Assembly: GCA_900318115.1 (NCBI GenBank)
Contig: ONJJ01000035.1
Span: 1 to 36,310 of the forward strand
Direction of reading: 5' to 3'
DNA: 36,310 nucleotides
From: an uncultured Prevotellaceae bacterium
GTDB taxonomy: Bacteria > Bacteroidota > Bacteroidia > Bacteroidales > Bacteroidaceae
This document shows positions 10,921 through 31,946 of this stretch, piece after piece. A model generated the notes under the pieces. The model saw only the letters and a list, made by a program, of their open reading frames with translations, had not been told where the DNA came from and made no database searches. The position numbers and the translations under genes are program-made. The first letter of the stretch is position 1; each line of letters starts with the position of its first letter.

Positions 10921-11060
10921 TTTTTTTTCAAGTTTAGAGTTTAGGGTGGCATCAAAGGAAACGATTGAGTATCGTTTTCGAAGATGACTTCTCAGCGCTC
11001 AGAGGATGCAAGACAAGTTTACTTAGTCACAGCAGCCGACGTTAAGCGCGTGAGGGAAAA

Positions 11061-11132
11061 GAGTTTAGAGTTTAGAGTTTAGAGTTTAGAGTAGTTTTAA
11101 AGTTGAGAGTTGAAAGTAGTTTAGAGTTTAAA
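11061..11132 (+). repeat. GAGTTTA heptamer tandem repeat in the DUF3109 gene leader
   Basis: Four perfect GAGTTTA units occupy 11061-11088, followed by degenerate units that run up to the GTG start at 11133. A shorter relative lies at 10930-10947 after ung. The repeat is in the mRNA sense of the downstream gene. Confidence 0.9.
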
Positions 11133-11762
11133 GTGAAACAGATTCCTATACTTGAAGTGGGCGAAGTGTTGATTTCCACGTCCATCCTGACTGAGAAGTT
11201 CTGCTGCGACCTCAGTGCCTGCGGCGGTGCTTGCTGCATCGAGGGCGACGCCGGCGCCCCCGTGAGCATAGAAGAGATTGGCGAGATCGAAGACTCGCTG
11301 GATGCCGTATGGTCCCTGATGTCCGCTCAGGCACAAGCCGTCGTGGATCGTCAGGGTGTTGCCTACACCGACGCTGAGGGCGATCTGGTAACCTCCATCG
11401 TCAACGGCAAGGACTGCGTGTTCACCTATTATAATTACCCCCCTCACACGGTGGAAGGACTGCCTCCGGGATGTTGCCTTTGCGCCTTGGAGAAGGCTTG
11501 TCGCGAAGGTCGCTCGCGCTTCATGAAACCAATCTCTTGCGCCCTCTATCCCATCCGCGAGAAGCGTTTCTCCGGCGGGCTCGTCGGTCTGAACCTGCAT
11601 CGCTGGGCTGTCTGCGACGCGGCCTTCCGCAAGGGGGCCGAATTGGATATCCCCGTTTACCGCTTTCTCCGCGAACCCCTCATACGCCGATTCGGCAAGG
11701 AATGGTACCACGAACTGGAAATCGTGGCTGAAGAGTTCGAGAAGACTTACTCAGAAGGGTGA
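11133..11762 (+). CDS. DUF3109 family cysteine-rich protein
   Basis: The 209-residue protein has many cysteines in family-typical positions: CCDLSACGGACC near residue 25, GCCLCALEKAC near 115, ISCALYP and AVCD further on. Together they suggest a bound metal or iron-sulfur cluster, as in the related YkgJ-type putative metal-chelating proteins. I recognise the family from FCCDLSAC followed by GACCIEGDAGAP; its biochemical function is not known to me. The start is uncertain: GTG at 11133 gives VKQIPILEVGEVLIS, while a TTG at 11103 would translate part of the repeats. No promoter of the consensus type was seen, so it may be read from ung. Not truncated. Confidence 0.88.
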   Translation: MKQIPILEVGEVLISTSILTEKFCCDLSACGGACCIEGDAGAPVSIEEIGEIEDSLDAVWSLMSAQAQAVVDRQGVAYTDAEGDLVTSIVNGKDCVFTYYNYPPHTVEGLPPGCCLCALEKACREGRSRFMKPISCALYPIREKRFSGGLVGLNLHRWAVCDAAFRKGAELDIPVYRFLREPLIRRFGKEWYHELEIVAEEFEKTYSEG

Positions 11763-20550: not shown

Positions 20551-20589
20551 CGTAAATCTGTAAATCCGTAAATCTGTAAATCGTAAATT
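20551..20589 (+). repeat. YGTAAATC octamer tandem repeat in the mraY leader
   Basis: Four perfect 8-base units (CGTAAATC, TGTAAATC, CGTAAATC, TGTAAATC) fill 20551-20582, followed by a partial GTAAATT, ending 6 bases before the mraY ATG. The second and fourth units match each other, as do the first and third. Confidence 0.92.
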
Positions 20590-20595
20590 ACCAAG

Positions 20596-21861
20596 ATGTT
20601 ATACTACCTCTTCCGTTACCTCAGTGAATTTGGCATTCCCGGTTCACACATGTGGAGTTACATCTCCTTCCGTGCTATCCTGACGTTGGTGCTCTCCCTC
20701 ATCATCTCCGCCTGGTTCGGCGAGTGGTTCATCAAATGGATGAAAGCACGCAACCTGAGCGAGGAGCAGCGGGACGCCAGCATCGACCCCTATGGAGTAG
20801 AGAAGAAGGGCGTGCCCTCGATGGGCGGCATCATCATTATTGTCGCCACCGTCATCCCAGCCCTGCTCTTTGGTCGTCTGCGCAACATTTATATGCTGAT
20901 CATGCTTGGCACCACTCTCTGGTTGGGAATGCTCGGTTTCATCGATGATTACACAAAGATGACCAAGGGCAAAGATGGCATTCGTCCGCTCTATAAGCTC
21001 GTTGGTCAGGCCGTGCTTGGACTGGTTGTTGGCTTGGTCTTGTGGCTTAGCCCTGATGCTGTGGTCCACGAGAACGTGACCACTGAGCGACAGAACGGAA
21101 AAGAAGTGGTCATCCACACCAGCGAACCCGTGAAGAGCACTGTCACCACCATTCCCTTCGTGAAGAACAACAATCTCCGCTACTCCGATGCCTTCCTTTG
21201 GCTGGGAGAGTATCGCCGGGCTGCCGGGTGGATTCTGTTTGTGCTGGTGACCACCTTCGTGGTGATGGCCGTCTCCAACGGAGCAAACCTGAATGATGGC
21301 ATGGACGGAATGTGTGCCGGCAATTCCGCCATCATGTGTTTCGCCCTGGGCATCCTGGCCTATGTCTCGTCGCACATCAACTTGGCCGCCTACCTGAATA
21401 TCATGTTCGTCCCTGGAAGTGAGGAACTGGTGGTATTCCTGATGGCGTTCGTTGGCGCGCTCATCGGTTTCCTCTGGTACAACGCCTATCCCGCTCAGGT
21501 CTTCATGGGCGACACCGGTTCGCTGGCCATCGGAGGCATCATCGCCGTGACTGCCATCATCATCCACAAGGAACTGTTGCTGCCGCTCATCTGCTTCGTC
21601 TTTCTGGCCGAGAGTGTGAGCGTCATCTTGCAGACAAACTATGCCAAGTATGGCAACAAACGCGGGCTGAAACTACGTTTCTTCAAACGCGCTCCCCTCC
21701 ACGACACTTTCCGTGTGAAGCCAGGGCAACTGCCCTCCGACTTCCGTGTGCTCCTCAACTGGCCAAAAGGTTGTTGGTTGGAGTCTAAGATCACTACCCG
21801 CTTCTGGATCGTAACCATCATGATGTGCGCACTCGCCATCGTAACCCTGAAAATAAGATAA
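20596..21861 (+). CDS. mraY: Phospho-MurNAc-pentapeptide-transferase
   Basis: MraY moves phospho-MurNAc-pentapeptide to undecaprenyl phosphate, making lipid I in the inner membrane. The 421-residue polytopic protein has KKGVPSMGG, the catalytic FIDDYTKM, NGANLNDGMDGM, and MGDTGSLAIGG, all polyprenyl-phosphate transferase hallmarks. It is longer than E. coli MraY (360) because of a periplasmic-type insert near residues 155-200 (with VTTERQNGKEV), common in Bacteroidetes. It follows murE after a leader packed with octamer repeats and is 4 bases from murD. Confidence 0.98.
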   Translation: MLYYLFRYLSEFGIPGSHMWSYISFRAILTLVLSLIISAWFGEWFIKWMKARNLSEEQRDASIDPYGVEKKGVPSMGGIIIIVATVIPALLFGRLRNIYMLIMLGTTLWLGMLGFIDDYTKMTKGKDGIRPLYKLVGQAVLGLVVGLVLWLSPDAVVHENVTTERQNGKEVVIHTSEPVKSTVTTIPFVKNNNLRYSDAFLWLGEYRRAAGWILFVLVTTFVVMAVSNGANLNDGMDGMCAGNSAIMCFALGILAYVSSHINLAAYLNIMFVPGSEELVVFLMAFVGALIGFLWYNAYPAQVFMGDTGSLAIGGIIAVTAIIIHKELLLPLICFVFLAESVSVILQTNYAKYGNKRGLKLRFFKRAPLHDTFRVKPGQLPSDFRVLLNWPKGCWLESKITTRFWIVTIMMCALAIVTLKIR

Positions 21862-21865
21862 GAAA

Positions 21866-23197
21866 ATGAAAAGAATCGTCATACTCGGAGCTGCCGAGAG
21901 CGGAGTCGGTGCCGCAGCGCTGGCAAAAAAAGAAGGCTTTGATGTCTTCGTCACCGACATGGGCAAAATCAAGCCCCACTACAAGGAGATGCTGGATGCA
22001 CGTGACATCCACTGGGAAGAAGGGCATCACACGGAAGAACTCATCCTGAATGCCGACGAGATCATCAAGAGCCCGGGAATCCCGGAAACGGCTCCCATGG
22101 TGCAGAAGGTTAAGGCCGCCGGCATCCCCATCATCAGCGAGATTGAATTCGCTGGGCGCTACACCCACTCTAAGATGATCTGCATCACCGGCTCCAACGG
22201 AAAGACCACCACCACCAGCCTTATCTACCATATCTTCAAGAACGCTGGCTATGACGTGGGACTGGCTGGAAATATCGGCAACAGCCTGGCACTGCAGGTT
22301 GCCGAGGAGCCCCACGAATACTACGTCATCGAGCTCTCCAGCTTCCAGCTGGACAACATGTATGATTTCCGTGCGAATATCGCCGTGCTGCTGAATATTA
22401 CTCCCGACCACCTCGACCGCTACCACAATTCCATGCAGGAGTACACCGATGCCAAGATGCGTATCTTGCAGAACCAGACGGCAGACGACGCTTTCGTCTT
22501 CTGGAACGACGACCCCGTCATCACCCGTGAGTTGGAAAAGTACCACATCGAGAGCCGGATGTGCCCCTTCAGCATCATCGAGAAGAAAGGTATGATTGGC
22601 TACATCGCCGACGGCGAATACCACATCGAGCGCCCCACCCCGTTCAATATGGAGCAGGAAGAACTGGCCCTCTCTGGCAAGCACAATATGTACAATTCGC
22701 TGGCAGCAGGTATCACGGCCGACCTCAGTGGCATTTCCAACGATGTAATCCGGCAGAGTCTGAGTGATTTCCAAGGCGTGGAGCATCGTCTGGAGTTCGT
22801 GTGCACCGTACATGGCGTTACGTTCATCAATGACTCCAAGGCCACGAACGTCGATGCTTGCTGGTACGCTCTCGAGAGCATGAAGCAACCCACAGTGCTC
22901 ATCCTCGGCGGCCTAGACAAGGGCAACGATTACAGTGCAATCAAGGACCTCGTGCTCGAAAAGTGCAAGGCACTGGTGTTCCTGGGTGTGGACAACCGCA
23001 AATTGCATGAGTTCTTTGACCCCTTGGGCCTGCCCATTGAGGAAACCCATTCGATGAAGGATTGTGTAGCCGCCTGCGCCAAGCTGGCAGTCTCCGGTGA
23101 CACAGTACTCCTCTCGCCCTGCTGCGCCAGTTTCGATCTCTTCAAGAATATGGAAGACCGCGGCGAACAGTTCAAGGCACTCGCACGAGCCCTTTAG
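21866..23197 (+). CDS. murD: UDP-MurNAc-L-Ala:D-glutamate ligase
   Basis: MurD adds D-Glu, the second stem-peptide residue. The 443-residue protein has an N-terminal Rossmann-like part (IVILGAAESGVGAAALAKKEG), KSPGIPETAP, the ATP loop ITGSNGKTTTTSL, HYVIELSSFQLD in the variant EYYVIELSSFQLDN, NITPDHLDRY, NDSKATN and a C-terminal CASFDLFKNMEDRGEQF, all typical. The ATG is 4 bases after the mraY stop, so the two are translationally linked. All catalytic motifs are present. Confidence 0.98.
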   Translation: MKRIVILGAAESGVGAAALAKKEGFDVFVTDMGKIKPHYKEMLDARDIHWEEGHHTEELILNADEIIKSPGIPETAPMVQKVKAAGIPIISEIEFAGRYTHSKMICITGSNGKTTTTSLIYHIFKNAGYDVGLAGNIGNSLALQVAEEPHEYYVIELSSFQLDNMYDFRANIAVLLNITPDHLDRYHNSMQEYTDAKMRILQNQTADDAFVFWNDDPVITRELEKYHIESRMCPFSIIEKKGMIGYIADGEYHIERPTPFNMEQEELALSGKHNMYNSLAAGITADLSGISNDVIRQSLSDFQGVEHRLEFVCTVHGVTFINDSKATNVDACWYALESMKQPTVLILGGLDKGNDYSAIKDLVLEKCKALVFLGVDNRKLHEFFDPLGLPIEETHSMKDCVAACAKLAVSGDTVLLSPCCASFDLFKNMEDRGEQFKALARAL

Positions 23198-23210
23198 ATA
23201 CATTACAAAC

Positions 23211-23252
23211 TGTAAATCCGTAAATCCGTAAATTCGTAAATCCATAAATCCC
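23211..23252 (+). repeat. YGTAAATC octamer tandem repeat in the ftsW leader
   Basis: Five consecutive 8-base units with few substitutions (TGTAAATC, CGTAAATC, CGTAAATT, CGTAAATC, CATAAATC) fill 23211-23250, leaving 2 bases before the ftsW ATG at 23253. Confidence 0.92.
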
Positions 23253-24467
23253 ATGACCCTCCGCAACAAGACAATCAATGCCAGCAGCCTTTTTGAAGGC
23301 GACAAAGTAATCTGGATGATACTTTTCTTCCTGTGTATCGTCTCAGTCTTGGAAGTCTATAGCGCCTCCAGCACCATGACTTTCAATAAGGGTGCCTATT
23401 GGACTCCCGTGCTGAAGCATGGGCTGTTCCTTGGCGTAGGCGTCAGTGTTGCCTGGGGAACACACAAGATTCCGCAGCGCTACTTCGGCTACATCGCAGT
23501 TTTAGGTATCTTCTTCAGTGTCGCCTTCCTTTTGGTAACGATGCTACGGGGCCAGACCACAAACGATGCGGCGCGATGGATGGACTTGGGATTCTTCTCA
23601 TTCCAGCCGTCGGAACTGGCGAAAGGGTCATTGGTCATGCTCTCGGCCGTGCTGCTCAGCTACTTCCGCGACGAGAACGGAGCTACCTCCACGGCCTTCA
23701 AGTGGGTACTGGGAATCACGTGTGTCATCTGCGCATTGATCGTGACGGAAAACCTTTCTACGGCGGCACTGACGTTCCTCATCATCCTGCTGATGATGTT
23801 CATCGCACAAGTGCCCTGGAAATATTTGGGTAGCCTGCTGGGCATTCTTAGCATTGCTGCCGCACTGGGCTACTCGGCTCTGCGCTTCACCCCCGACAGT
23901 ATTCTCGACAAGTTCGAGGACACGCCGCTGGAGCGCGTGAAGACGTGGTCCCACCGTCTCCGCAACCACGTGGACTTCCCGGATGACCCCAAGCAGTTCG
24001 ACCTGAATACCAACCCACAGATTACGCAATCCCATATCGCGATTGCCACCTGCAACATCATCGGTCGCGGCCCAGGCAACAGCCGTGTGCGAGACTTCCT
24101 GCCTCAAGCCTACTCTGACTTCATCTATGCCATCATCATCGAGGAACTGGGACTCTTTGGCGGATTCGTGGTGATGTTCCTCTACATCATACTCCTCTTC
24201 CGTGCAGCACAGATAGCAAGTCGCAGCGATTCGATGATGCTGGGATTCATGGTGCTGGGGTTAGCACTGCTCATCGTCACCCAGGCATTAATCAACATGG
24301 CTGTTGCCGTAGGAGTGATGCCTGTGACTGGTCAGCCACTGCCGCTCGTCAGCCGTGGCGGTTCCAGTATCATGGTCAATTGCTTCTACATCGGCTTGAT
24401 GCTAAACATCAGCCGTTCGGCATCCCAAAAAGAGCAAGAATATGCTCTTGAGGCCACAAAAGCGTGA
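23253..24467 (+). CDS. ftsW: Septal peptidoglycan polymerase FtsW (SEDS family)
   Basis: FtsW polymerises lipid II into septal glycan together with FtsI. The 404-residue protein has about ten membrane helices, with family motifs DAARWMDLGFFSFQPSELAK, IVTENLSTAAL, GxGPGNS in the form GRGPGNSRVRDFLPQAYSDFIYAIIIEELG, and the C-terminal TGQPLPLVSRGGSSI. The conserved Asp in SDFIYAIIIEELG lies in the region needed for catalysis. It follows murD after a 55-base spacer largely made of octamer repeats. The end of the gene is followed by a GTTTGAGTTTAAAG word related to the heptamer family. Confidence 0.97.
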   Translation: MTLRNKTINASSLFEGDKVIWMILFFLCIVSVLEVYSASSTMTFNKGAYWTPVLKHGLFLGVGVSVAWGTHKIPQRYFGYIAVLGIFFSVAFLLVTMLRGQTTNDAARWMDLGFFSFQPSELAKGSLVMLSAVLLSYFRDENGATSTAFKWVLGITCVICALIVTENLSTAALTFLIILLMMFIAQVPWKYLGSLLGILSIAAALGYSALRFTPDSILDKFEDTPLERVKTWSHRLRNHVDFPDDPKQFDLNTNPQITQSHIAIATCNIIGRGPGNSRVRDFLPQAYSDFIYAIIIEELGLFGGFVVMFLYIILLFRAAQIASRSDSMMLGFMVLGLALLIVTQALINMAVAVGVMPVTGQPLPLVSRGGSSIMVNCFYIGLMLNISRSASQKEQEYALEATKA

Positions 24468-24527
24468 AAGTTTGAGTTTAAAGTAAAAAAAGAAGGCTCA
24501 AAACGTTTAACAAAAGAGATTTATTTG

Positions 24528-24535
24528 TATTTTTG
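24528..24535 (+). promoter_or_regulatory. Possible internal promoter before murG
   Basis: TATTTTTG matches TAnnTTTG exactly, about 21 bases before the murG ATG, in the largest gap between ftsW and murG. A weak TTTA lies 18 bases upstream instead of TTTG. Confidence 0.5.
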
Positions 24536-24555
24536 CGCAGAATTTCGAACTATCT

Positions 24556-25668
24556 ATGGCAACATCACTCAAAGTTATCATCAGCGGCGGCGGCACAGGA
24601 GGTCACATCTTCCCTGCATTGTCCATAGCCAATGCCATCCGCGCACTTCGTCCGGAGGCGGAAATCCTGTTCGTCGGTGCCGAAGGCCGCATGGAAATGA
24701 AGCGCGTTCCCGATGCCGGCTACCGCATCGTCGGACTTCCCATCCGTGGTTTCCTGCGTCCTTTGTGGAATCTCGGGAACATTGGTGTCGCCCTTGACTA
24801 CCTCAAGAGCAAGCGTATGGCAAAGAAGTTGCTGCGTGAATTCCAGCCCCAGGTGGCTGTCGGCGTTGGCGGCTACGCAAGCAGTGCCGCCTTAGGAGCG
24901 GCCAACAGCCTGGGGATTCCTACCTTGCTGCAGGAGCAAAATAGTTTTGCGGGGTTGGCCAATAAGCAGTTGGCCAAGAATGCCGCCAAGATATGCGTCG
25001 CCTACGAAGGCATGGAGCGCTTCTTCCCGAAGGATAAGATCATGCTCACAGGCAACCCGGTCCGTCAGTCCCTGCTCGAATGCAAGCTGACGAAGCCCGA
25101 GGCAGTGGAACGCTTAGGATTTGACCCCGTGCGTCCCCTCATCCTCATCATTGGAGGCAGTCTGGGAGCCCGCACCATCAATGAGAGCGTGCTCCAGAAC
25201 CTGCAACTCATCAGCGAGAGCCGTGTGCAGATTGTATGGCAGACAGGAGGCTACTACTTCGAAGACATCAAGCAGAGTCTGGCCGCAAAAGGATGTCCGG
25301 CCAACCTGAAGGTCACCGACTTCATCACCCGCATGGACGAAGCCTACCGCGCTGCTGACCTCGTCATCAGCCGTGCCGGAGCCAGCAGCATCAGTGAGCT
25401 CTGTCTGCTCGGTAAAGCTTCCATTCTCGTGCCTTCGCCCAATGTGGCGGAGGATCATCAGACCCACAACGCCATGGCTCTCGTCCACAAGGATGCCGCC
25501 CTGCTGGTGAAAGATATCGAGGCACGCGAACAGCTCCTCCCGCTGGCAGTCCGGACGGCTCTGGATATTCCGACCCTACAGCGTTTGAGCGCCAATGCCA
25601 AGGCCATGGGACTACCGGACTCCGCCCGCATCATTGCAGAAGAAGTCATCAAGTTAAGTGAAAAGTAA
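24556..25668 (+). CDS. murG: Lipid II synthase MurG (GlcNAc transferase)
   Basis: MurG adds GlcNAc from UDP-GlcNAc to lipid I on the inner face of the membrane, giving lipid II. The 370-residue GT-B protein starts with the glycine-rich ISGGGTGGHIFPALSIANA, has GVGGYASSAALGAA, LLQEQNSFAGLANK, GNPVRQSLL, IIGGSLGARTIN, SRAGASSISEL and SPNVAEDHQTHNA. It probably has its own promoter and is followed 4 bases later by murC. The last residues Ser-Glu-Lys come from an AGTGAAAAGTAA word. Confidence 0.98.
   Translation: MATSLKVIISGGGTGGHIFPALSIANAIRALRPEAEILFVGAEGRMEMKRVPDAGYRIVGLPIRGFLRPLWNLGNIGVALDYLKSKRMAKKLLREFQPQVAVGVGGYASSAALGAANSLGIPTLLQEQNSFAGLANKQLAKNAAKICVAYEGMERFFPKDKIMLTGNPVRQSLLECKLTKPEAVERLGFDPVRPLILIIGGSLGARTINESVLQNLQLISESRVQIVWQTGGYYFEDIKQSLAAKGCPANLKVTDFITRMDEAYRAADLVISRAGASSISELCLLGKASILVPSPNVAEDHQTHNAMALVHKDAALLVKDIEAREQLLPLAVRTALDIPTLQRLSANAKAMGLPDSARIIAEEVIKLSEK
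25657..25668 (+). repeat. AGTGAAAAGTAA word over the murG stop
   Basis: The 12-mer encodes Ser-Glu-Lys-stop and is identical to the one ending the MmeI-like gene on the other strand (4350-4361). In both cases the next gene starts within 1-4 bases. Confidence 0.8.
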
Positions 25669-25672
25669 AGTT

Positions 25673-27046
25673 ATGCAATATACATCAGTTTATTTTATAG
25701 GGATCGGTGGCATCGGAATGAGTGCCATTGCCCGCTATTACCTACAACGGGGGCTCACCGTCGGTGGCTACGACAAGACCCCCACCCCACTCACCCGGGA
25801 GCTGGAGAAGGAAGGGGCACTCATCCACTATGAGGACGATGTCCACCAAATTCCTGAACCTTTCCTGGACGAGACTTCCACGTTGGTTGTCTATACCCCT
25901 GCAATTCCGGCAGAACACACGGAGTTCCAATACTTCATCGCCAATCATTTCGATGTACAGAAGCGTGCACAAGTCTTGGGGACGCTCACGCGCACGCACA
26001 AGGGATTGTGCGTAGCAGGCACGCACGGAAAGACCACCACCAGCAGTATGACCGCCCACTTGCTGCACCAAAGCCATGTGGACTGCAACGCCTTCCTCGG
26101 AGGCATCACCAAGAACTATGGTACGAACTACATCCTCGCGCCCGAAAGCGACTATGTCGTCATCGAGGCCGATGAGTTCGACCGCTCCTTCCACTGGCTA
26201 ACGCCCTTTGCCACAGTCATCACCGCCACGGATCCCGACCACCTGGACATCTATGGCACAGAAGAGGCCTACCTCCAGAGCTTCCGCCACTACTCTGAAC
26301 TCATCCAGCCCGGAGGGTTTCTCGTCCTGCACACAGGGCTGAAGATGCAGCCCAACCCGCCCGCCAGCGTCACCACCTACACTTACTCCCGCGAATCCGG
26401 TGATTTCCACGCCGCCAACGTCCGCATCGGCGGCGGACAGATCTGTTTTGACCTTATTTCGCCCCTCGGCGACATCCGCGACATTGAGCTGGGAGTGCCG
26501 GTGGGAGTGAACATCGAGAATGGCATTGCTGCGATGGCTCTCGCACAGATTGCAGGCCTCACCGCCGAAGAGATCCGCACGGGTATGAAAACCTTTGGAG
26601 GTGTGGACCGCCGCTTCGACTTTCATGTGAGGAACGCCCACAAGGCCTACCTCAGCGACTATGCACACCACCCCGAAGAAATCCGTGCCAGCATCCAGAG
26701 CATTCGTGAGGTTTATCCCGGCAAACGAATCGTAGGCATCTTCCAGCCGCATCTCTATACCCGAACCCGCGACTTCTACCGCGAGTTCGCCGATGCCCTC
26801 TCACAACTGGACGAGGTCATCCTGACAGAAATCTATCCTGCCCGCGAGCAGCCCATTCCTGGCATCGACAGCCAACTCATACTCGACAACCTGCGTCCCG
26901 GAGTGCCTCACCGCCTCATCCAGAAGAAAGACGTACTCGACGCCGTCCGCCATACGGAATTCGACGTACTCATCACCCTTGGTGCCGGAGACCTCGACAA
27001 TTATGCCGACGAGATAGCAAAGATCGTTGAAAAAGAGAATAGTTAA
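25673..27046 (+). CDS. murC: UDP-MurNAc:L-alanine ligase
   Basis: MurC adds L-Ala to UDP-MurNAc, starting the stem peptide. From the ATG at 25673 it has 457 residues; a GTG at 25658 inside the murG end is less likely. Motifs are VYFIGIGGIGMSAIARYY at the N-terminus, SDxxxTxxT replaced by YDKTPTPLT, the ATP loop AGTHGKTTTSSM, EADEFDRSFHWL, ATDPDHLDIY, DYAHHPEEI and FQPHLYTRTRDF. It is coupled to murG by a 4-base gap, and ftsQ follows after 56 bases. Confidence 0.98.
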   Translation: MQYTSVYFIGIGGIGMSAIARYYLQRGLTVGGYDKTPTPLTRELEKEGALIHYEDDVHQIPEPFLDETSTLVVYTPAIPAEHTEFQYFIANHFDVQKRAQVLGTLTRTHKGLCVAGTHGKTTTSSMTAHLLHQSHVDCNAFLGGITKNYGTNYILAPESDYVVIEADEFDRSFHWLTPFATVITATDPDHLDIYGTEEAYLQSFRHYSELIQPGGFLVLHTGLKMQPNPPASVTTYTYSRESGDFHAANVRIGGGQICFDLISPLGDIRDIELGVPVGVNIENGIAAMALAQIAGLTAEEIRTGMKTFGGVDRRFDFHVRNAHKAYLSDYAHHPEEIRASIQSIREVYPGKRIVGIFQPHLYTRTRDFYREFADALSQLDEVILTEIYPAREQPIPGIDSQLILDNLRPGVPHRLIQKKDVLDAVRHTEFDVLITLGAGDLDNYADEIAKIVEKENS

Positions 27047-27102
27047 TAAGCCAGTCGGTGTAAAGTCCGAGTAATCTTTGCCTAACATAACAACAAGAGT
27101 CT

Positions 27103-27849
27103 ATGCAAAAGAGTTCCATACTGAAAACCATACTGAAGCTGCTCGTCTTCCTTGGACTGGCAGGTTACCTGACCTATGCCATCCTGGATTTCAATCGCCC
27201 GGCCCACAGTCCTGAGTGTACGGGGTTGGATATCATCATCAAAGACGAGCAGTGTACGGATTTTATCAATGAAAACGAGATCCGTGAGTTATTGGTGAGC
27301 AAGAAACTCTTTCCCGAAGGCAAGGCATTGGACGACATCGACCTCACCAACCTCGAGAAGGTGCTCACCGCCAGCCCATACATCGACGAGGCACTCTGCT
27401 TCAAGACCGCAGAAGGCCGTGTTGCCATACACCTGACGCCTCGCGTGCCAGTGCTGCATGTCCTCAACAGTGAAGGCGAGGACTTCTACATTGACAACCG
27501 CGGAGGCACCATGCCGCGCGGCCACCATACCATAGACTTGTTGGTCATGACGGGCAACGTCCCCAGCGCCAAGGCAGGTCCCCTCTATAGCAATATGGGC
27601 AAACGGCTGGGCAGCGACCCCTACTGGAGCCGTCAGATTCAGGAAATACATGTCCGCCCTGATGGCGACATCGAGCTCACCCCTATAGCAGGAGACTTCA
27701 CCATCCTGCTCGGTGACACCTCCAACCTCGACGACAAACTCAGCCGCATGCGCACCTTCTATTCCGAGGGACTCGACAAAGCCGGCTGGAACCGCTATCG
27801 CCTTATCAACCTGAAGTTCTCCGGACAAGTAGTTGCAGAACGCAGATAA
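27103..27849 (+). CDS. ftsQ: Cell division protein FtsQ
   Basis: FtsQ bridges early and late divisome proteins from the periplasmic side. The 248-residue protein has a short cytoplasmic tail, one membrane helix (about 10-28) and a periplasmic part with a POTRA-like segment containing INENEIRELLVSKKLFPEGKALDDIDLTNLEKVLTASP, then YIDNRGGTMP and a beta-rich C-terminus. This matches Bacteroidetes FtsQ in size and position, directly before ftsA. Sequence conservation in this family is low, so the call relies partly on gene order. The stop codon falls within the first octamer-like unit of the ftsA leader. Confidence 0.9.
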   Translation: MQKSSILKTILKLLVFLGLAGYLTYAILDFNRPAHSPECTGLDIIIKDEQCTDFINENEIRELLVSKKLFPEGKALDDIDLTNLEKVLTASPYIDEALCFKTAEGRVAIHLTPRVPVLHVLNSEGEDFYIDNRGGTMPRGHHTIDLLVMTGNVPSAKAGPLYSNMGKRLGSDPYWSRQIQEIHVRPDGDIELTPIAGDFTILLGDTSNLDDKLSRMRTFYSEGLDKAGWNRYRLINLKFSGQVVAERR

Positions 27850-27852
27850 ATT

Positions 27853-27880
27853 CGCAAATCCGTAAATTCGTAAATCGTCA
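27853..27880 (+). repeat. CGTAAATC octamer repeat in the ftsA leader
   Basis: Three units CGCAAATC, CGTAAATT and CGTAAATC occupy 27853-27876, then a partial GTCA; the ATG is at 27887. The ftsQ stop TAA sits just before. Confidence 0.85.
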
Positions 27881-27886
27881 TATACT

Positions 27887-29302
27887 ATGGGAGTTGAAAA
27901 GAACATCGTTGCCATTGAGCTCGGTTCCTCGTCCGTCCGAGCCATCGTCGGGCAGAAGAAGCCCGATGGAAGCCTGCAAGTGATAGGCTTCGAGAAGGAA
28001 AACGCCCCCGACAGCATTCACAAGGGCGTCGTTTATAACATCGACAAGACCGTACAAGCCATCGTCAGCGTCAAGAAACGCCTGGAAGAACATGGACATT
28101 TTATCATTGACCGCGTCTGCGTAGGCGTCAGCGGGCAGTCACTCCACAGCGTGGCCAACAGCGTCCATCGCCAGTTCGACATTAAGGTGACCGTCAGCGA
28201 CGAGATTGTCGACAACCTGCTCGATGAGAACCGTGCACAGGCCTACCCGGGGTTGGAAATTCTCGACGTCGTGCCTCAGGAGTACCGTGTGGGCTCCAGC
28301 CTTACCCACGAGCCCGTAGGCATCATGGCCGACCGCATCGAGGGCTACTACAAGAATATAGTCGCCCGCAAGTCCCTGCGCGAGAGCATCGGACGATGCC
28401 TGCAAGGCGCCAAGCTGGAGGTCGCCGACTACTTCATCGCTCCCCTCTTGCTTTCCAGCTACATACTGACCGACACCGAGAAGCGCTCCGGCTGCGCACT
28501 CGTGGACTTCGGAGCAGAAACCACCACCGTGGCAGTGTATGAGAAAAACATCCTGCGCCACCTGGCAGTGATACCCCTTGGGGGCAGCAACCTCACCACC
28601 GATATCGCCAACAGCCTCCACATCGAGTACGAGGAGGCCGAGAAGCTCAAGCTAACCTATGGCTCTGCCTACACTGACGAGGAACAGATAGATGCTGCAC
28701 GCACCATTAATATTTCCAACGACCGGACCATCGAACTGAAGAAGCTGCTCAACCTCATCGAGGCTCGCCAGCAAGAAATCCTGGCCAACGTCTGGGAGCA
28801 GATCAAGGACTATTCCGAACGCCTGCTGGCCGGCGTCTTCTTCACGGGCGGTGCTGCCAATATTCCCAACCTGGAGACTGCCTTCGTCCTGTACCATCAC
28901 TTCGACAAAGTGAAGACTCGTATGATGCCCGCGTCCACGGAGTACACCACCTCCCTGAAGCTCGATCCACAGATCACGACCATCGCCACACTCGTGGCAA
29001 TGCTGCGCCGCGGCGATCAGGAGTGCACCAGCGAGCGCCACGAACCCACAGACCTCTTTGACCAGGTGGCGGAGGAAGACCCCACGCCCGCAAAGCCCAC
29101 CGAGCCCTCGGCTGGAACAGGTGTCGTGCGCGAAGCCAAACCCACGGCAGAGCCCGAGGCGGAACCCGCCGCCGACACAGCGACAGAACCGGCCGCAGAA
29201 CCCGTGCACGAGGAACCCAAGGAGCCCAAAAAGCCCGGTGCCTTCAAGCGCTTTTTCAAGAAAGTGTCCGATGCCCTCGAAGGCCTCGTGGAAGAGAAGT
29301 AA
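27887..29302 (+). CDS. ftsA: Cell division protein FtsA
   Basis: FtsA is an actin-like ATPase that ties FtsZ to the membrane and recruits later proteins. The 471-residue protein has the phosphate loop IVAIELGSSSVRAIVG, the SHS2-type domain, CALVDFGAETTTVAVYEKN, IPLGGSNLTTDIA and FFTGGAANIPNLE. After residue 390 comes a low-complexity linker of Pro, Ala, Glu and Thr (about 55 residues), ending in a basic amphipathic helix KKPGAFKRFFKKVSDALEGL that should be the membrane-targeting sequence. A long linker of this kind is seen in several Bacteroidetes FtsA. ftsZ follows after 37 bases. Confidence 0.97.
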   Translation: MGVEKNIVAIELGSSSVRAIVGQKKPDGSLQVIGFEKENAPDSIHKGVVYNIDKTVQAIVSVKKRLEEHGHFIIDRVCVGVSGQSLHSVANSVHRQFDIKVTVSDEIVDNLLDENRAQAYPGLEILDVVPQEYRVGSSLTHEPVGIMADRIEGYYKNIVARKSLRESIGRCLQGAKLEVADYFIAPLLLSSYILTDTEKRSGCALVDFGAETTTVAVYEKNILRHLAVIPLGGSNLTTDIANSLHIEYEEAEKLKLTYGSAYTDEEQIDAARTINISNDRTIELKKLLNLIEARQQEILANVWEQIKDYSERLLAGVFFTGGAANIPNLETAFVLYHHFDKVKTRMMPASTEYTTSLKLDPQITTIATLVAMLRRGDQECTSERHEPTDLFDQVAEEDPTPAKPTEPSAGTGVVREAKPTAEPEAEPAADTATEPAAEPVHEEPKEPKKPGAFKRFFKKVSDALEGLVEEK

Positions 29303-29305
29303 TCC

Positions 29306-29340
29306 CGTTAAATGTTAATCCGTTAATCGTTAATCTGTTA
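29306..29340 (+). repeat. GTTAATC-type tandem repeat running into the ftsZ start codon
   Basis: Units CGTTAAAT, GTTAATC, CGTTAATC, GTTAATC and TGTTATGG follow each other, so the ATG at 29340 lies within the last degenerate unit. This is the same design as the GTAAATC repeats with an exchanged core. Confidence 0.85.
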
Positions 29341-30674
29341 TGGCAGACTCATATAACTCCGAGACGGGAGGCATCCAGTTCAACCTCCAGGTCAACAATC
29401 CCAGTATCATCAAGGTCGTAGGCGTCGGAGGCGGCGGTGGCAATGCAGTCACCCACATGTACAACGAGGGAATCCACGATGTCACCTACGTCCTCTGCAA
29501 CACCGACAACAAGGCGCTCACCGATTCTCCCGTGCCCAACAAACTGCAGATGGGCGAAGGACTCGGCGCCGGCAACAAGCCCGAGAAAGGTCGTCAGGCA
29601 GCCCTCGAGTCCATCGAGCAAATCAAGCAACTCTTCACCGACGGCACACGTATGGCCTTCATCACCGCAGGCATGGGTGGCGGCACCGGCACCGGCGCAG
29701 CACCCATCGTGGCCCAGTGCGCGCGTGAGATGGACATCCTCACCGTGGGCATCGTCACCATCCCCTTCCGCTTCGAGGGCCACAAGAAAATCGACCAGGC
29801 GCTCGACGGCGTGGAGGAGATGTCCAAGCACGTCGATGCACTGCTCGTCATCAACAACGAACTCCTCCGCCAGATCTATCCCGAACTCACCGTGCTCAAT
29901 GGCTTTGCCAAGGCCGACGACACCCTCAGCGTGGCCGCCAAGAGCATCGCCGAGATCATCACCATGCGAGGCATCATCAACCTCGACTTCCAGGATGTCA
30001 AGACCGTGCTCAAGGATGGTGGCGTCGCCATCATGTCCACTGGCTATGGCGAGGGCGAGAACCGCGTCACCAAAGCCTTCCAGGAAGCACTCCACAGCCC
30101 CCTGCTCAACAACAACGACATCTATAACTCCAAGAAGGTCCTCTTCTACATCTCCTTCAGCCGCAGCAACGAGAACGACCAGCTGACCATGGAAGAGATG
30201 AACGAGGTCAACGACTTCATGGCCAAGTTCCAGCAGGAGACTCTCGAGACCAAGTGGGGCATGGGCATCGACGACAGCCTCGGCAACAAGGTAAAAATCA
30301 CCCTCCTTGCATCTGGCTTCGGGCTCCAGAACATCCCGGGCATGGAGGAAGTGGAGCGCAAGCGCACACGCGAGGAAGAAGAGGAAATGCGCAAGCGCGA
30401 GGAACTGCGCGAGCAGAACGAGGACCGCCGCCGCATCTACTACACCGATGAGGAGAGCCGCCCCCAGAAACCGCGCCGCCAGATTTTCATCTTCAGCGAG
30501 AAAGACCTCGACAACGACGACATTATCTCCATGGTCGAATCCACCCCCACCGCCGAACGCAACAAGGCAGAGCTCAAGCGCATCCAGGAGAAAGCCGGCA
30601 AGGACGTTGGCGCCATCTCCGAAGCCTCCTCGTCCGATGCCTCCGGAGCCATCGATTTCACGATCACCTTCTGA
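29340..30674 (+). CDS. ftsZ: Cell division GTPase FtsZ
   Basis: FtsZ polymerises into the ring that organises septation. The 444-residue protein has GVGGGGGNAVTHM, CNTDNKAL, the tubulin signature GMGGGTGTGAAPIVAQ (near 110-125), and NLDFQDVKTVLKDGGVAIMSTG. The globular core ends near residue 320. The C-terminal tail is highly charged (KRTREEEEEMRKREE and more) and long. It ends in a conserved-looking terminal peptide GAIDFTITF that should bind FtsA. Codons end mostly in C or G, as in gyrB. The terminator for the cluster lies inside the end of the convergent recO gene. Confidence 0.98.
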   Translation: MADSYNSETGGIQFNLQVNNPSIIKVVGVGGGGGNAVTHMYNEGIHDVTYVLCNTDNKALTDSPVPNKLQMGEGLGAGNKPEKGRQAALESIEQIKQLFTDGTRMAFITAGMGGGTGTGAAPIVAQCAREMDILTVGIVTIPFRFEGHKKIDQALDGVEEMSKHVDALLVINNELLRQIYPELTVLNGFAKADDTLSVAAKSIAEIITMRGIINLDFQDVKTVLKDGGVAIMSTGYGEGENRVTKAFQEALHSPLLNNNDIYNSKKVLFYISFSRSNENDQLTMEEMNEVNDFMAKFQQETLETKWGMGIDDSLGNKVKITLLASGFGLQNIPGMEEVERKRTREEEEEMRKREELREQNEDRRRIYYTDEESRPQKPRRQIFIFSEKDLDNDDIISMVESTPTAERNKAELKRIQEKAGKDVGAISEASSSDASGAIDFTITF

Positions 30675-30678
30675 TCAT

Positions 30679-31398
30679 CTACTCAAAGACCTCGGCCAAC
30701 ACGCCGAGGCTTTTTATTTCCGGAAATTCCGGGATGTGCAGGCGATAGAAGAGGACGATGAGCTCGAGCGCCCGCCGGCGTGCATTCCTGTTCAGGCGCA
30801 CAGCGCGCATCGAGCGGTAGTCCATACGCAGGAACTTCTGCACCAGCGCCGCCTCGGCGGGCTCTATATAAAAAGGATACGCGGGGCGCGCGCGCACGAA
30901 GGAGGCCGCCTGCAAGTCGAAGTAGGCACCCTCCGTCCAGTCGTCCACGTTCGGCAGGAAGCCCAGGAAGCGGGAGAGGTGCAGCAGGAAGACCACATGG
31001 AAGTTGGCATACCGCTCCTCGGCAGCGTCCAGCCACTGCAGGCTGCTGACGAGGAAGTCGAAGAGGGCGCCGTTCTCCTGTTCCGAGGCCAGGGCGTGGG
31101 ACAGGAACTCCGCCAGGAACAGGCCCATTGTCGTCTTCACGGGCTGGAACGGGAGGTCATGCCAGGGCTGCCACAACGTCACCTCCTGCGGCTTCTGGAA
31201 ATTCATCCTCAGCCGTGGCTCCCACAGAATGTCCACCAGCGCCAGCGGCTGCCACACACTGGCCCGCAACCCCTGCTTGCCATTGCGCGGCAGGCGGACA
31301 ATGAAGGGGACGGTCCCCGACGTCTCCGTGAAGACGTTGAGGATCACCTGCTGGTCGCCGTAGCGCAGGGAACGGAGGACGATGCCGTGGGAGTGCAT
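30679..31398 (-). CDS. recO: DNA repair protein RecO
   Basis: RecO helps RecR and RecF load RecA on SSB-coated DNA. The 239-residue protein has an N-terminal OB-fold with HGIVLRSLRYGDQQVILNVFTETSGTVPFIVRLPR, and a helical C-terminal part with HLSRFLGFLPN and FYRLHIPEFPEIKSLGVLAEVF, as in Bacteroidales RecO. The zinc-binding cysteines of some RecO proteins are absent. Only 4 bases separate its stop from that of ftsZ, and the ftsZ terminator overlaps its last codons. It diverges from tRNA-Glu. Confidence 0.93.
   Translation of the reverse strand: MHSHGIVLRSLRYGDQQVILNVFTETSGTVPFIVRLPRNGKQGLRASVWQPLALVDILWEPRLRMNFQKPQEVTLWQPWHDLPFQPVKTTMGLFLAEFLSHALASEQENGALFDFLVSSLQWLDAAEERYANFHVVFLLHLSRFLGFLPNVDDWTEGAYFDLQAASFVRARPAYPFYIEPAEAALVQKFLRMDYRSMRAVRLNRNARRRALELIVLFYRLHIPEFPEIKSLGVLAEVFE
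30690..30719 (+). terminator. Terminator of the dcw cluster, inside the 3' end of recO
   Basis: CCTCGGC (30690-30696) pairs with GCCGAGG (30703-30709) with a 6-base loop, followed by CTTTTTATTT. It lies 16 bases after the ftsZ stop but within the last recO codons. Confidence 0.8.
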
Positions 31399-31417
31399 TT
31401 TTCTGAATTTTACGATG

Positions 31418-31425
31418 CAAAAGTA
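31418..31425 (-). promoter_or_regulatory. Promoter -7 element of recO
   Basis: On the minus strand TACTTTTG matches TAnnTTTG, about 20 bases before the recO ATG. No -33 TTTG is visible at the expected distance. Confidence 0.5.
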
Positions 31426-31496
31426 GCAAAAAACTTTGGGATAAGGACATAATGGGGCCTAAAATCCACTATTTTGCAACATTTTTTGTGGAAATA

Positions 31497-31528
31497 TTTG
31501 GCAGAACCGAAAATTTGCCGTACCTTTG
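31497..31528 (+). promoter_or_regulatory. Strong consensus promoter for tRNA-Glu and rpsT
   Basis: TTTG (31497-31500), exactly 20 bases, then TACCTTTG (31521-31528): both elements match the Bacteroidetes consensus fully. It is the best promoter in the window. Confidence 0.8.
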
Positions 31529-31536
31529 CACCCGCA

Positions 31537-31568
31537 AATCACACCACGGAATGTTAAGGCGTGTGATT
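31537..31568 (+). other. Leader hairpin upstream of tRNA-Glu
   Basis: AATCACAC (31537-31544) and GTGTGATT (31561-31568) are perfect 8-base arms with a 16-base loop, starting about 8 bases after the -7 box and ending 11 bases before the tRNA. It may mark RNase processing of the tRNA-rpsT transcript. Confidence 0.5.
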
Positions 31569-31579
31569 CAAGCAAGGCT

Positions 31580-31651
31580 GGTCCATTCGTCTATCGGTTA
31601 GGACGAGAGATTTTCATTCTCTAAAGAGCAGTTCGACTCTGCTATGGACTA
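31580..31651 (+). tRNA. tRNA-Glu (anticodon UUC)
   Basis: The 72 bases fold into a cloverleaf: acceptor GGTCCAT/ATGGACT with a G-T first pair, D arm GTCT/GGAC, anticodon arm AGAGA-TTTTCAT-TCTCT giving TTC, and T arm AGCAG-TTCGACT-CTGCT. The discriminator is A and CCA is not encoded. It lies between a strong promoter and rpsT, with which it is probably cotranscribed and then cut out. Confidence 0.95.
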
Positions 31652-31654
31652 CAA

Positions 31655-31688
31655 TAAATCGAAAATGTAAATCGTCAAATCGTAAATA
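31655..31688 (+). repeat. GTAAATC-type repeat between tRNA-Glu and rpsT
   Basis: Units TAAATC, TGTAAATC, GTCAAATC and GTAAATA follow one another up to 4 bases before the rpsT ATG at 31692, the same word family as before mraY, ftsW and ftsA. Confidence 0.8.
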
Positions 31689-31691
31689 GAA

Positions 31692-31946
31692 ATGGCAAAT
31701 CATAAGTCATCAATCAAGAGAATCCGTCAGGAGCAGAAGCGCCGCCTCCACAACCGCTACTACGCCAAGGCCATGCGCGCTGCAGTCCGCAAGCTCCGTG
31801 CCACTACCGAAAAGGCAGAGGCCGAGAAGCAGTATCCCGTCGTGCAGAAGATGCTCGACAAACTCGCTAAGACAAACACCATCCACAAGAACAAGGCTGC
31901 CAATCTGAAGTCCAAGTTGGCACGCTATATCCAGAAGTTGGCTTAA
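31692..31946 (+). CDS. rpsT: 30S ribosomal protein S20
   Basis: The 84-residue basic protein has the S20 pattern [22 protein letters not shown] at the start and [18 protein letters not shown] at the end. It binds 16S rRNA early in small-subunit assembly. It is placed right after tRNA-Glu, as in other Bacteroidales, with a repeat-filled leader in between and a strong terminator (32018-32052) downstream. Confidence 0.98.

Follow-up and report, generated by a model that had tools for sequence, protein, structure and literature searches.

The window, a stretch of 36,310 nucleotides (contig ONJJ01000035.1, assembly GCA_900318115.1) from an uncultured Prevotellaceae bacterium, carries a division and cell wall (dcw) cluster in the order murE, mraY, murD, ftsW, murG, murC, ftsA and ftsZ, followed by rpsT. 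Several of these genes are preceded by short tandem repeats, among them arrays of the word GTAAATC, which are the subject of this analysis. The source genome comprises 3.33 Mb in 74 contigs with a completeness of 86.97. By protein comparison, in which records very near the window may be omitted, the named relatives nearest to it are genomes from rumen metagenomes, most of which bear the label Bacteroidales or Bacteroidaceae. For FtsW, identity is 96% with RUG11694 (L031) and 52–58% with Paraprevotella; RUG11694, designated G088, is used as the near relative throughout. The features of the window, with repeats located by Tandem Repeats Finder (TRF) and by inspection of the sequence, are as follows.

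20552..20589, + strand: GTAAATCY octamer array in the mraY leader, four exact GTAAATC plus GTAAAT (TRF, sequence)
20596..21861, + strand: mraY (TIGR00445, E 7.5e-73, NCBIfam)
23212..23251, + strand: octamer array in the ftsW leader, five units GTAAATCC, GTAAATCC, GTAAATTC, GTAAATCC, ATAAATCC (TRF, sequence)
23253..24467, + strand: ftsW, FtsW/RodA family (TIGR02614, E 1.8e-75; dcw cluster position)
27847..27876, + strand: imperfect octamer array in the ftsA leader (TRF period 8, 3.8 copies, 77% match)
27887..29302, + strand: ftsA (TIGR01174, E 1.7e-63)
29314..29339, + strand: GTTAATC(Y) array GTTAATCCGTTAATCGTTAATCTGTT in the ftsZ leader, abutting the ATG at 29340 (TRF, sequence)
29340..30674, + strand: ftsZ (TIGR00065, E 1.4e-95)
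31580..31652, + strand: tRNA-Glu, directly 5' of the rpsT repeat (tRNA search)
31655..31688, + strand: irregular TAAATC/AAATC-rich repeat in the rpsT leader, not of period 8, identical in G088
31692..31946, + strand: rpsT (TIGR00029, E 6e-27)
11060..11138, + strand: AGAGTTT/AGTTGA heptamer array over the predicted start (11133) of a DUF3109 gene (TRF, sequence)

A preliminary description had assigned an exact 8-base period to the leaders of mraY, ftsW, ftsA and rpsT. This holds for mraY (TRF period 8 at 20552-20588, 4.8 copies) and ftsW (period 8 at 23212-23251, 5.0 copies), only imperfectly for ftsA, and not for rpsT, where TRF fits periods of 13, 7 or 21 and the TAAATC/AAATC words are unevenly spaced. 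Its count at mraY, four perfect units plus a partial one, is right for GTAAATC, although the final step measures 7 nt and not 8; its three units at ftsA form an array with a single exact GTAAATC, preceded by GCAAATCC and GTAAATTC. NCBIfam agrees with the four gene names given there, with ftsW scoring 254.3 bits on TIGR02614, under the curated cut-off of 337.5. The arrays indeed lie in the mRNA sense and end shortly before the ATG, at about 6, 1, 10 and 3 nt for mraY, ftsW, ftsA and rpsT, respectively. Chance is an improbable source, as had been argued: when up to two mismatches are allowed, GTAAATCYGTAAATC is found 10 times in the window, always on the + strand and once in the ftsZ leader, and the expected number is 0.06 (maximum 1 in 100 shuffles). 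Two further statements need correction. That other leaders lack the repeat was too strong, since ftsZ has its GTTAATC array and the DUF3109 gene its AGAGTTT array. Nor are the genes in different parts of the genome, mraY, ftsW and ftsA belonging to one dcw cluster and rpsT beginning 2.4 kb past the end of ftsA.

At 31580-31692, tRNA-Glu, repeat and rpsT succeed one another with gaps of 2–3 nt, and the final 60 nt of the leader are identical in RUG11694. The array at the DUF3109 gene includes the reverse complement of ACTCTAA, a word that is mostly sense elsewhere in the genome. Elsewhere in the window, a TTTTCAC heptamer array occupies 2254-2284, in an intergenic stretch scored as convergent, and a 126-bp tandem repeat at 1-262 lies within a coding frame whose product looks TPR-like by eye. 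An Rfam scan of the window returned two tRNAs only, with no riboswitch or other known structured RNA above the gathering score.

Placement, strand and folding of the leader arrays

The tandem 15-mer GTAAATCNGTAAATC has 33 exact matches in the genome and its letter reversal has none. Thirty of these (L001-L030; C64:27198, C64:27206 and C73:35539 were left out) collapse to 24 distinct arrays, and a 25th (L008), dropped in de-duplication, is included wherever 25 arrays are analysed. A predicted sense start lies within 50 nt of the first 15-mer in 20 of the 24. At L008, an ATG follows 17 nt downstream, where no frame of at least 60 codons was found, and at L025 the array stands 4 nt 5' of a tRNA-Arg. 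A TA..TTTG box is present within 150 nt upstream of 5 of the 25 arrays and within 60 nt downstream of none, as expected if the arrays lie within the transcript.

The genes behind the arrays are diverse. A Pfam scan of 18 downstream frames, with mraY and ftsW excluded, matched 17: a CDP-alcohol phosphatidyltransferase, a tRNA (guanine-1) methyltransferase, an asparaginase, an aminotransferase, a HIT protein, CobU, a two-domain RNase PH protein (polynucleotide phosphorylase-like), an acyltransferase, an IF2_N protein (infB-like), YbeY, DUF2752, a CdaA-type DAC, DUF2795, an O-methyltransferase, a class II (A) tRNA synthetase, DUF4254 and DUF4290. No common pathway is seen among them in the NCBIfam and Pfam annotations. 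Before the IF2_N-domain gene (L019 1501-1615 and G088:C4:49852-49964), two GTAAATC arrays stand in opposite orientation ~100 bp apart, with equally spaced matches in G088.

We quantified the bias in a sample of 931,387 bases, made up of the window and up to 20 kb from the beginning of each of 60 contigs, in which 642 genes were called with a purpose-written gene finder that uses a codon model and chooses starts independently of the leader. Within 60 nt before starts (27.6 kb), GTAAATC occurs 27 times in the sense and twice in the antisense orientation, compared with 10 and 21 times in 813 kb of coding sequence; the preliminary description had stated that its idea would fall if the word were as frequent in coding as in non-coding DNA and on one strand as on the other, which is not what we find. 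Other words share the sense bias in the same 60 nt, namely GTTAATC (12:1), ACTCTAA (27:5), CGAAACA/CGAAATA (22:2) and CATTAAC (7:0). GTAAATC peaks 10–20 nt before the start, both here and in G088, when the window and the stretches chosen by hits are included. With these removed, it is found in 12 of 480 leaders, against a mean of 2.4 and a maximum of 4 in 20 runs simulated from a second-order Markov model of the leaders themselves, and once in antisense; in G088, without hit-chosen stretches, the values are 9 of 592 leaders, a simulated mean of 2.8 and maximum of 6, and again one antisense occurrence. At least two GT[ATC]AATC units are present in 11 of 504 leaders, window included, against 0.05 simulated. 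The highest enrichment among leader words is that of TACCTTTG and TATCTTTG, which we take to match the Bacteroidetes -7 promoter element and which serve as a check of the method.

The leaders show no excess of Shine-Dalgarno (SD) cores (GGAG/GAGG/AGGA at -20 to -4 in 49 of 574 leaders; mean of 42.0 in 20 shuffles) and are enriched in A at -11 to -16, -6 and -3. Array leaders are predicted to fold weakly, with a mean minimum free energy of -2.41 kcal/mol (n=13) against -6.55 for other leaders (n=446, P 0.002), -4.56 for the same 40 letters shuffled and -14.42 around internal Met codons (n=400). Weak folding and the missing SD excess together support an earlier suggestion of the preliminary description, an unstructured A-rich landing site that dispenses with SD pairing. 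Such leaders have precedents. Prevotella and other Bacteroidetes are described with unstructured 5'-UTRs and no SD (PMC3155529), and in Flavobacterium johnsoniae adenines at -3, -6, -12 and -13 accompany high initiation (PMC6847099); in the Prevotella and Flavobacterium work considered here, secondary structure in the start region lowers initiation and upstream adenines raise it (PMC3155529, PMC6847099). On this basis, we regard the arrays as leaders of this kind built from repeats.

Species differences and the range of repeat words

Between this genome and G088, we compared 139 pairs of orthologues whose starts match (median protein identity 94.7%; some pairs are counted twice, as loci overlap). 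An exact array within 70 nt of the start occurs in 13 rows representing 11 distinct genes, in both species at 2, only here at 6 and only in G088 at 3. Among 77 distinct pairs with leaders of at least 40 nt, the median leader match is 0.85, against 0.37 for random pairs, and 8 pairs have an 8-spaced AAATC or a double GTAAATC in at least one species. Ranked by conservation among the 77, these array leaders stand at 1 (rpsT, identical), 21 (infB-like, near-identical), 22, 37, 44, 47, 49 and 56. By eye, the G088 leaders of mraY, ftsW, L017 and L021 contain decayed TAAAT-rich sequence at the same place, which suggests that the arrays are old and local, subject to decay or renewal, and not recently inserted.

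Within the 25 GTAAATC arrays, neighbouring units are alike in 20 of 74 cases against 20.1 permuted (lag 2, 14/49; lag 3, 5/28), so recent single-unit slippage is not visible in them. As sole maker of these arrays, recent slippage is unsupported, the linkers being alike only at the permuted level; the more perfect ACTCTAA arrays (e.g. L146) do resemble slippage. For expression tuning by copy-number slippage, raised in the preliminary description, and for phase-variable contingency repeats, the only variation seen is that between species. The ordered pair GTAAATCTGTAAATCC is common to 10 of the 25 arrays (P 0.007, pooled-unit shuffle) and a 20-mer to 8 (P 0.012), an excess that fades with length (22-mer, P 0.20; 24-mer, P 0.053). 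Compared all against all over 400 nt on each side, the flanks are unrelated except for a 72-nt stretch in which L001 and L004 match at 78% and a few matches 17–31 nt long. A mobile element with conserved flanks, be it a miniature inverted-repeat transposable element or another kind, is rejected on this comparison. Octamer arrays of CTCTGTGT occur on either strand at L117 19261-19286, L122 4263-4287 (5' of a GTAAATC array) and L112 9252-9278, and may account for the longer L001/L004 match.

The intergenic DNA is generally rich in repeats. TRF finds 81 arrays of period 5-13 in 101 kb assigned as intergenic, 32 in 813 kb of coding sequence and 7 more in unassigned ends. Exact arrays of period 7-9 are distributed as follows.

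This genome: leaders 18/474, coding tiles 1/597
dcw loci of 13 rumen relatives (L031-L041, L051, L052): leaders 12/148, coding tiles 0/191
Paraprevotella: leaders 0/67, coding tiles 0/152
Flavobacteriales and others (L054-L080): leaders 1/140, coding tiles 0/432
Distant Bacteroidales: leaders 0/34, coding tiles 0/142

The period of 71 leader arrays (20 from this genome, 34 from G088 and 17 from 12 rumen relatives) is 7 in 44, 8 in 16, 9 in 5, 10 in 2, 11 in 4 and 6 in none. A stop codon is present in 47 of the 71 units against 37.3 after letter shuffling (P 0.005), with an equal count in antisense and words that are not independent. Neither 7 nor 8 is a multiple of 3, so that a stop codon within such a unit would recur in all three frames.

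Counts of individual words differ across genomes, and species thus favour different words. Among 139 genomes of the genus, GTAAATCNGTAAATC occurs in 30, with 33 matches here and 9 and 6 in the next two; ACTCTAAACTCTAA in 85, with 49 matches here, 109 in G088 and 108 in G061; and TCAACTTTCAACTTTCAA in 63, with a single match here, 116 in G023 and 115 in G010. The reversed control for ACTCTAAACTCTAA is mostly 0 and exceeds the pattern in a few genomes (e.g. G004, 7 vs 1), and that for TCAACTTTCAACTTTCAA is uninformative, as the repeat reads identically backwards. Of 151 genomes sampled across the family, 17 contain triple ACTCTAA, representing 6 of 30 genera. With a phage origin in view, viral contigs were also searched; 12 have triple ACTCTAA, and the triple GTAAATC pattern has no match in them. 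The same genes carry other words in relatives: GTTAATC before ftsW in L032, and before mraY CTTTCAA in L052, CTCACTC in L037 and CACTATG/CACTTTAG in L040. Convergent gaps harbour 9-mer arrays of ACGAATTAT / ACGGATTAG that are unlike the leader words (L115 497-522, L134 1600-1678, L136 6074-6100), and L134 has both orientations ~30 nt apart.

Origin and possible role of the arrays

We give an even chance to the reading in which the arrays consist for the most part of leader sequence that is poor in G and intrinsically unfolded, and that arises by repeated tandem duplication of 7-9 nt units in a lineage with no SD signal. Short tandem duplication would generate low-G, unfolded sequence in the leader, and such sequence, if transcribed, would be retained in the mRNA sense as ribosome landing space, where it could affect translation. 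The recurrence of GTAAATC, ACTCTAA and CGAAAYA at many unlinked leaders, one word at at least 20, falls outside this account.

Several observations weigh against it. Three of the 24 arrays are not sense leaders (L005, L007, L019 minus strand) and another precedes a tRNA; the L005 array is antisense, 21 nt from an antisense start, and that of L007 abuts, by eye, the stop codon of a ThyA-like gene on the opposite strand, where we take a 252-codon sense frame for a shadow frame. A promoter box is visible at only the 5 of 25 arrays noted above. Leaders generally have more C than G (363 to 109), as do arrays near starts (19 to 8 of 30). AAGTGAA (3:4) and ACGAATT (3:9) have no sense-leader bias, and with hit-chosen stretches removed GTAAATC ranks only 142nd among enriched leader 7-mers in G088 and 22nd here. 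Several orthologues of the same genes have array-free leaders, so the array is not required, and convergent gaps also carry arrays (10 in 12.1 kb). In other species, 30 GTAAATC arrays from 30 loci in 29 genus genomes comprise 14 sense leaders within 100 nt, 4 antisense and 12 of neither class, 5 of the latter inside predicted genes and some others with a start that appears poorly called by eye. For triple ACTCTAA, 23 arrays from 15 genomes selected for high ACTCTAAACTCTAA counts split into 11 sense leaders, 8 antisense and 4 neither, and 4 of the 23 (L244, L249, L264, L269) lie directly 5' of a TATCTTTG/TACCTTTG box and are thus probably not leader RNA. The two splits indicate that a leader-RNA reading suits GTAAATC better than ACTCTAA. 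At these same four loci, the ACTCTAA arrays stop where a T-run and the box start, and may serve as upstream promoter spacers.

A neutral origin is a real, though lesser, possibility. Here, intergenic DNA would simply be prone to duplications of 7-9 nt, selection would purge only harmful arrays (folded, G-rich or within genes), and the sense bias would be a by-product of leader composition with no function for the arrays. This fits their presence in every intergenic class, convergent gaps included, the dominance of periods 7 and 8, and the divergence of most array leaders from G088 despite the similarity of the proteins. It also fits the general picture of bacterial genomes, in most of which heptamers are reported to be the most common long simple sequence repeats (PMC4679880). 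Nor do leaders show an enrichment of single AAATC, with 83 occurrences here (75.8 simulated) and 77 in G088 (89.8 simulated). However, GTAAATC exceeds the Markov expectation and is nearly sense-only in two species, the real arrays fold less than shuffles of matched composition, rpsT and the infB-like gene have conserved repeat leaders, and the same words recur at unlinked loci.

It is unlikely, in our judgement, that a rumen Bacteroidaceae genus uses species-specific tandem leader words as a multi-site RNA signal that loads ribosomes or RNA-binding proteins in place of SD pairing, rewritten fast as species diverge and, in this species and its near relative, set in an 8-nt (T)AAATC register. 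Slightly less credit goes to the narrower proposal of an RNA element with an 8-nt-spaced (T)AAATC core and free linkers, bound by an RRM/RbpB-like, cold-shock or bS1 protein that would control or aid initiation at scattered housekeeping genes. With no word preselected, AAATC is the most frequent 5-mer recurring at spacing 8 in leaders, both here and in G088, with sense:antisense ratios of 10:1 and 11:2 once chosen stretches are removed, and the core recurs while the linkers vary. A preference for AU-rich sequences, which are common in the region of the ribosome binding site, is reported for RbpB of B. thetaiotaomicron (PMC11697453). Yet lag-8 AAATC is found in merely 2 of 150 leaders of other rumen relatives, and other species use unrelated words (ACTCTAA, CAACTTT, CTCACTC). 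Position by position, the mismatch rate in 49 non-ascertained units is similar to that in A-rich 8-mers which pass the same filter by chance in the same leaders, being lower only at positions 3-6 and most at 6 (0.02 vs 0.25); a selected core with free linkers is accordingly not claimed.

A spreading element in spacers had also been proposed in the preliminary description; in the form of a micro-satellite-like DNA cassette that copies itself into gene-adjacent spacers, it is highly improbable: one word at many unlinked loci, the shared GTAAATCTGTAAATCC and 20-mer and some arrays abutting opposite-strand genes would suit it, but the flanks give it no support, the shared-string excess fades at greater length, triple GTAAATC is absent from viral contigs, and the decayed-looking arrays often seen at the same place in G088 favour local descent.

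The closest published case is that of the TAACTGA heptamers described by MacGregor in 2015 (PMC4679880), direct repeats found in marine Beggiatoaceae, in some cyanobacteria and in five Bacteroidetes, for which S1 or another RNA-binding protein was proposed as reader and dispersal was left unexplained. As characterised in the sections of that paper considered here, those repeats are likewise tandem and in forward orientation just before start codons, have little SD character and no evident mobile carrier, and are distributed differently between related strains. They differ in their unit, since those studied here are GTAAATCY, GTTAATCY and others, with an 8-nt unit in the present finding. Words related to TAACTGA are rarely or never tandem, whereas several tandem words coexist here (GTAAATCY, GTTAATC, ACTCTAA, CGAAAYAT and others); word use varies by species, and there is no genome-level SD excess. 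The arrays also resemble the long simple sequence repeats of prokaryotes (Mrazek et al. 2007, via PMC4679880), in which units of 5-11 nt exceed chance, 7 nt being the commonest, and which are mostly non-coding; in contrast to that class as summarised there, some words here concentrate in sense leaders and recur at unlinked loci. With the non-SD initiation regions of Bacteroidota (PMC3155529, PMC6847099), they have in common the absence of SD excess, low folding and A-richness at -11 to -16, -6 and -3; the word 'repeat' does not appear in the main text of either paper, so such arrays are not described there. Among the literature matches listed, none described tandem repeats in the leaders of Prevotella, Bacteroidales or rumen bacteria. 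Leader heptamer repeats as such were already known, and what is new is the multitude of words, mostly of 7 and 8 nt, species-specific and in a lineage with no SD signal. Cyanobacterial short tandemly repeated repetitive (STRR) sequences, tandem heptamers in cyanobacterial DNA, are similar by description.

How Bacteroidota choose start codons without SD pairing is an open question on which the arrays bear. If they do nothing, they are still the record of a rumen clade, over 100 species in size, whose intergenic DNA is unusually prone to repeats. Arrays at essential genes that are absent or replaced in the orthologue of a near relative constitute a natural experiment, in which the same gene is found with and without a repeat leader.

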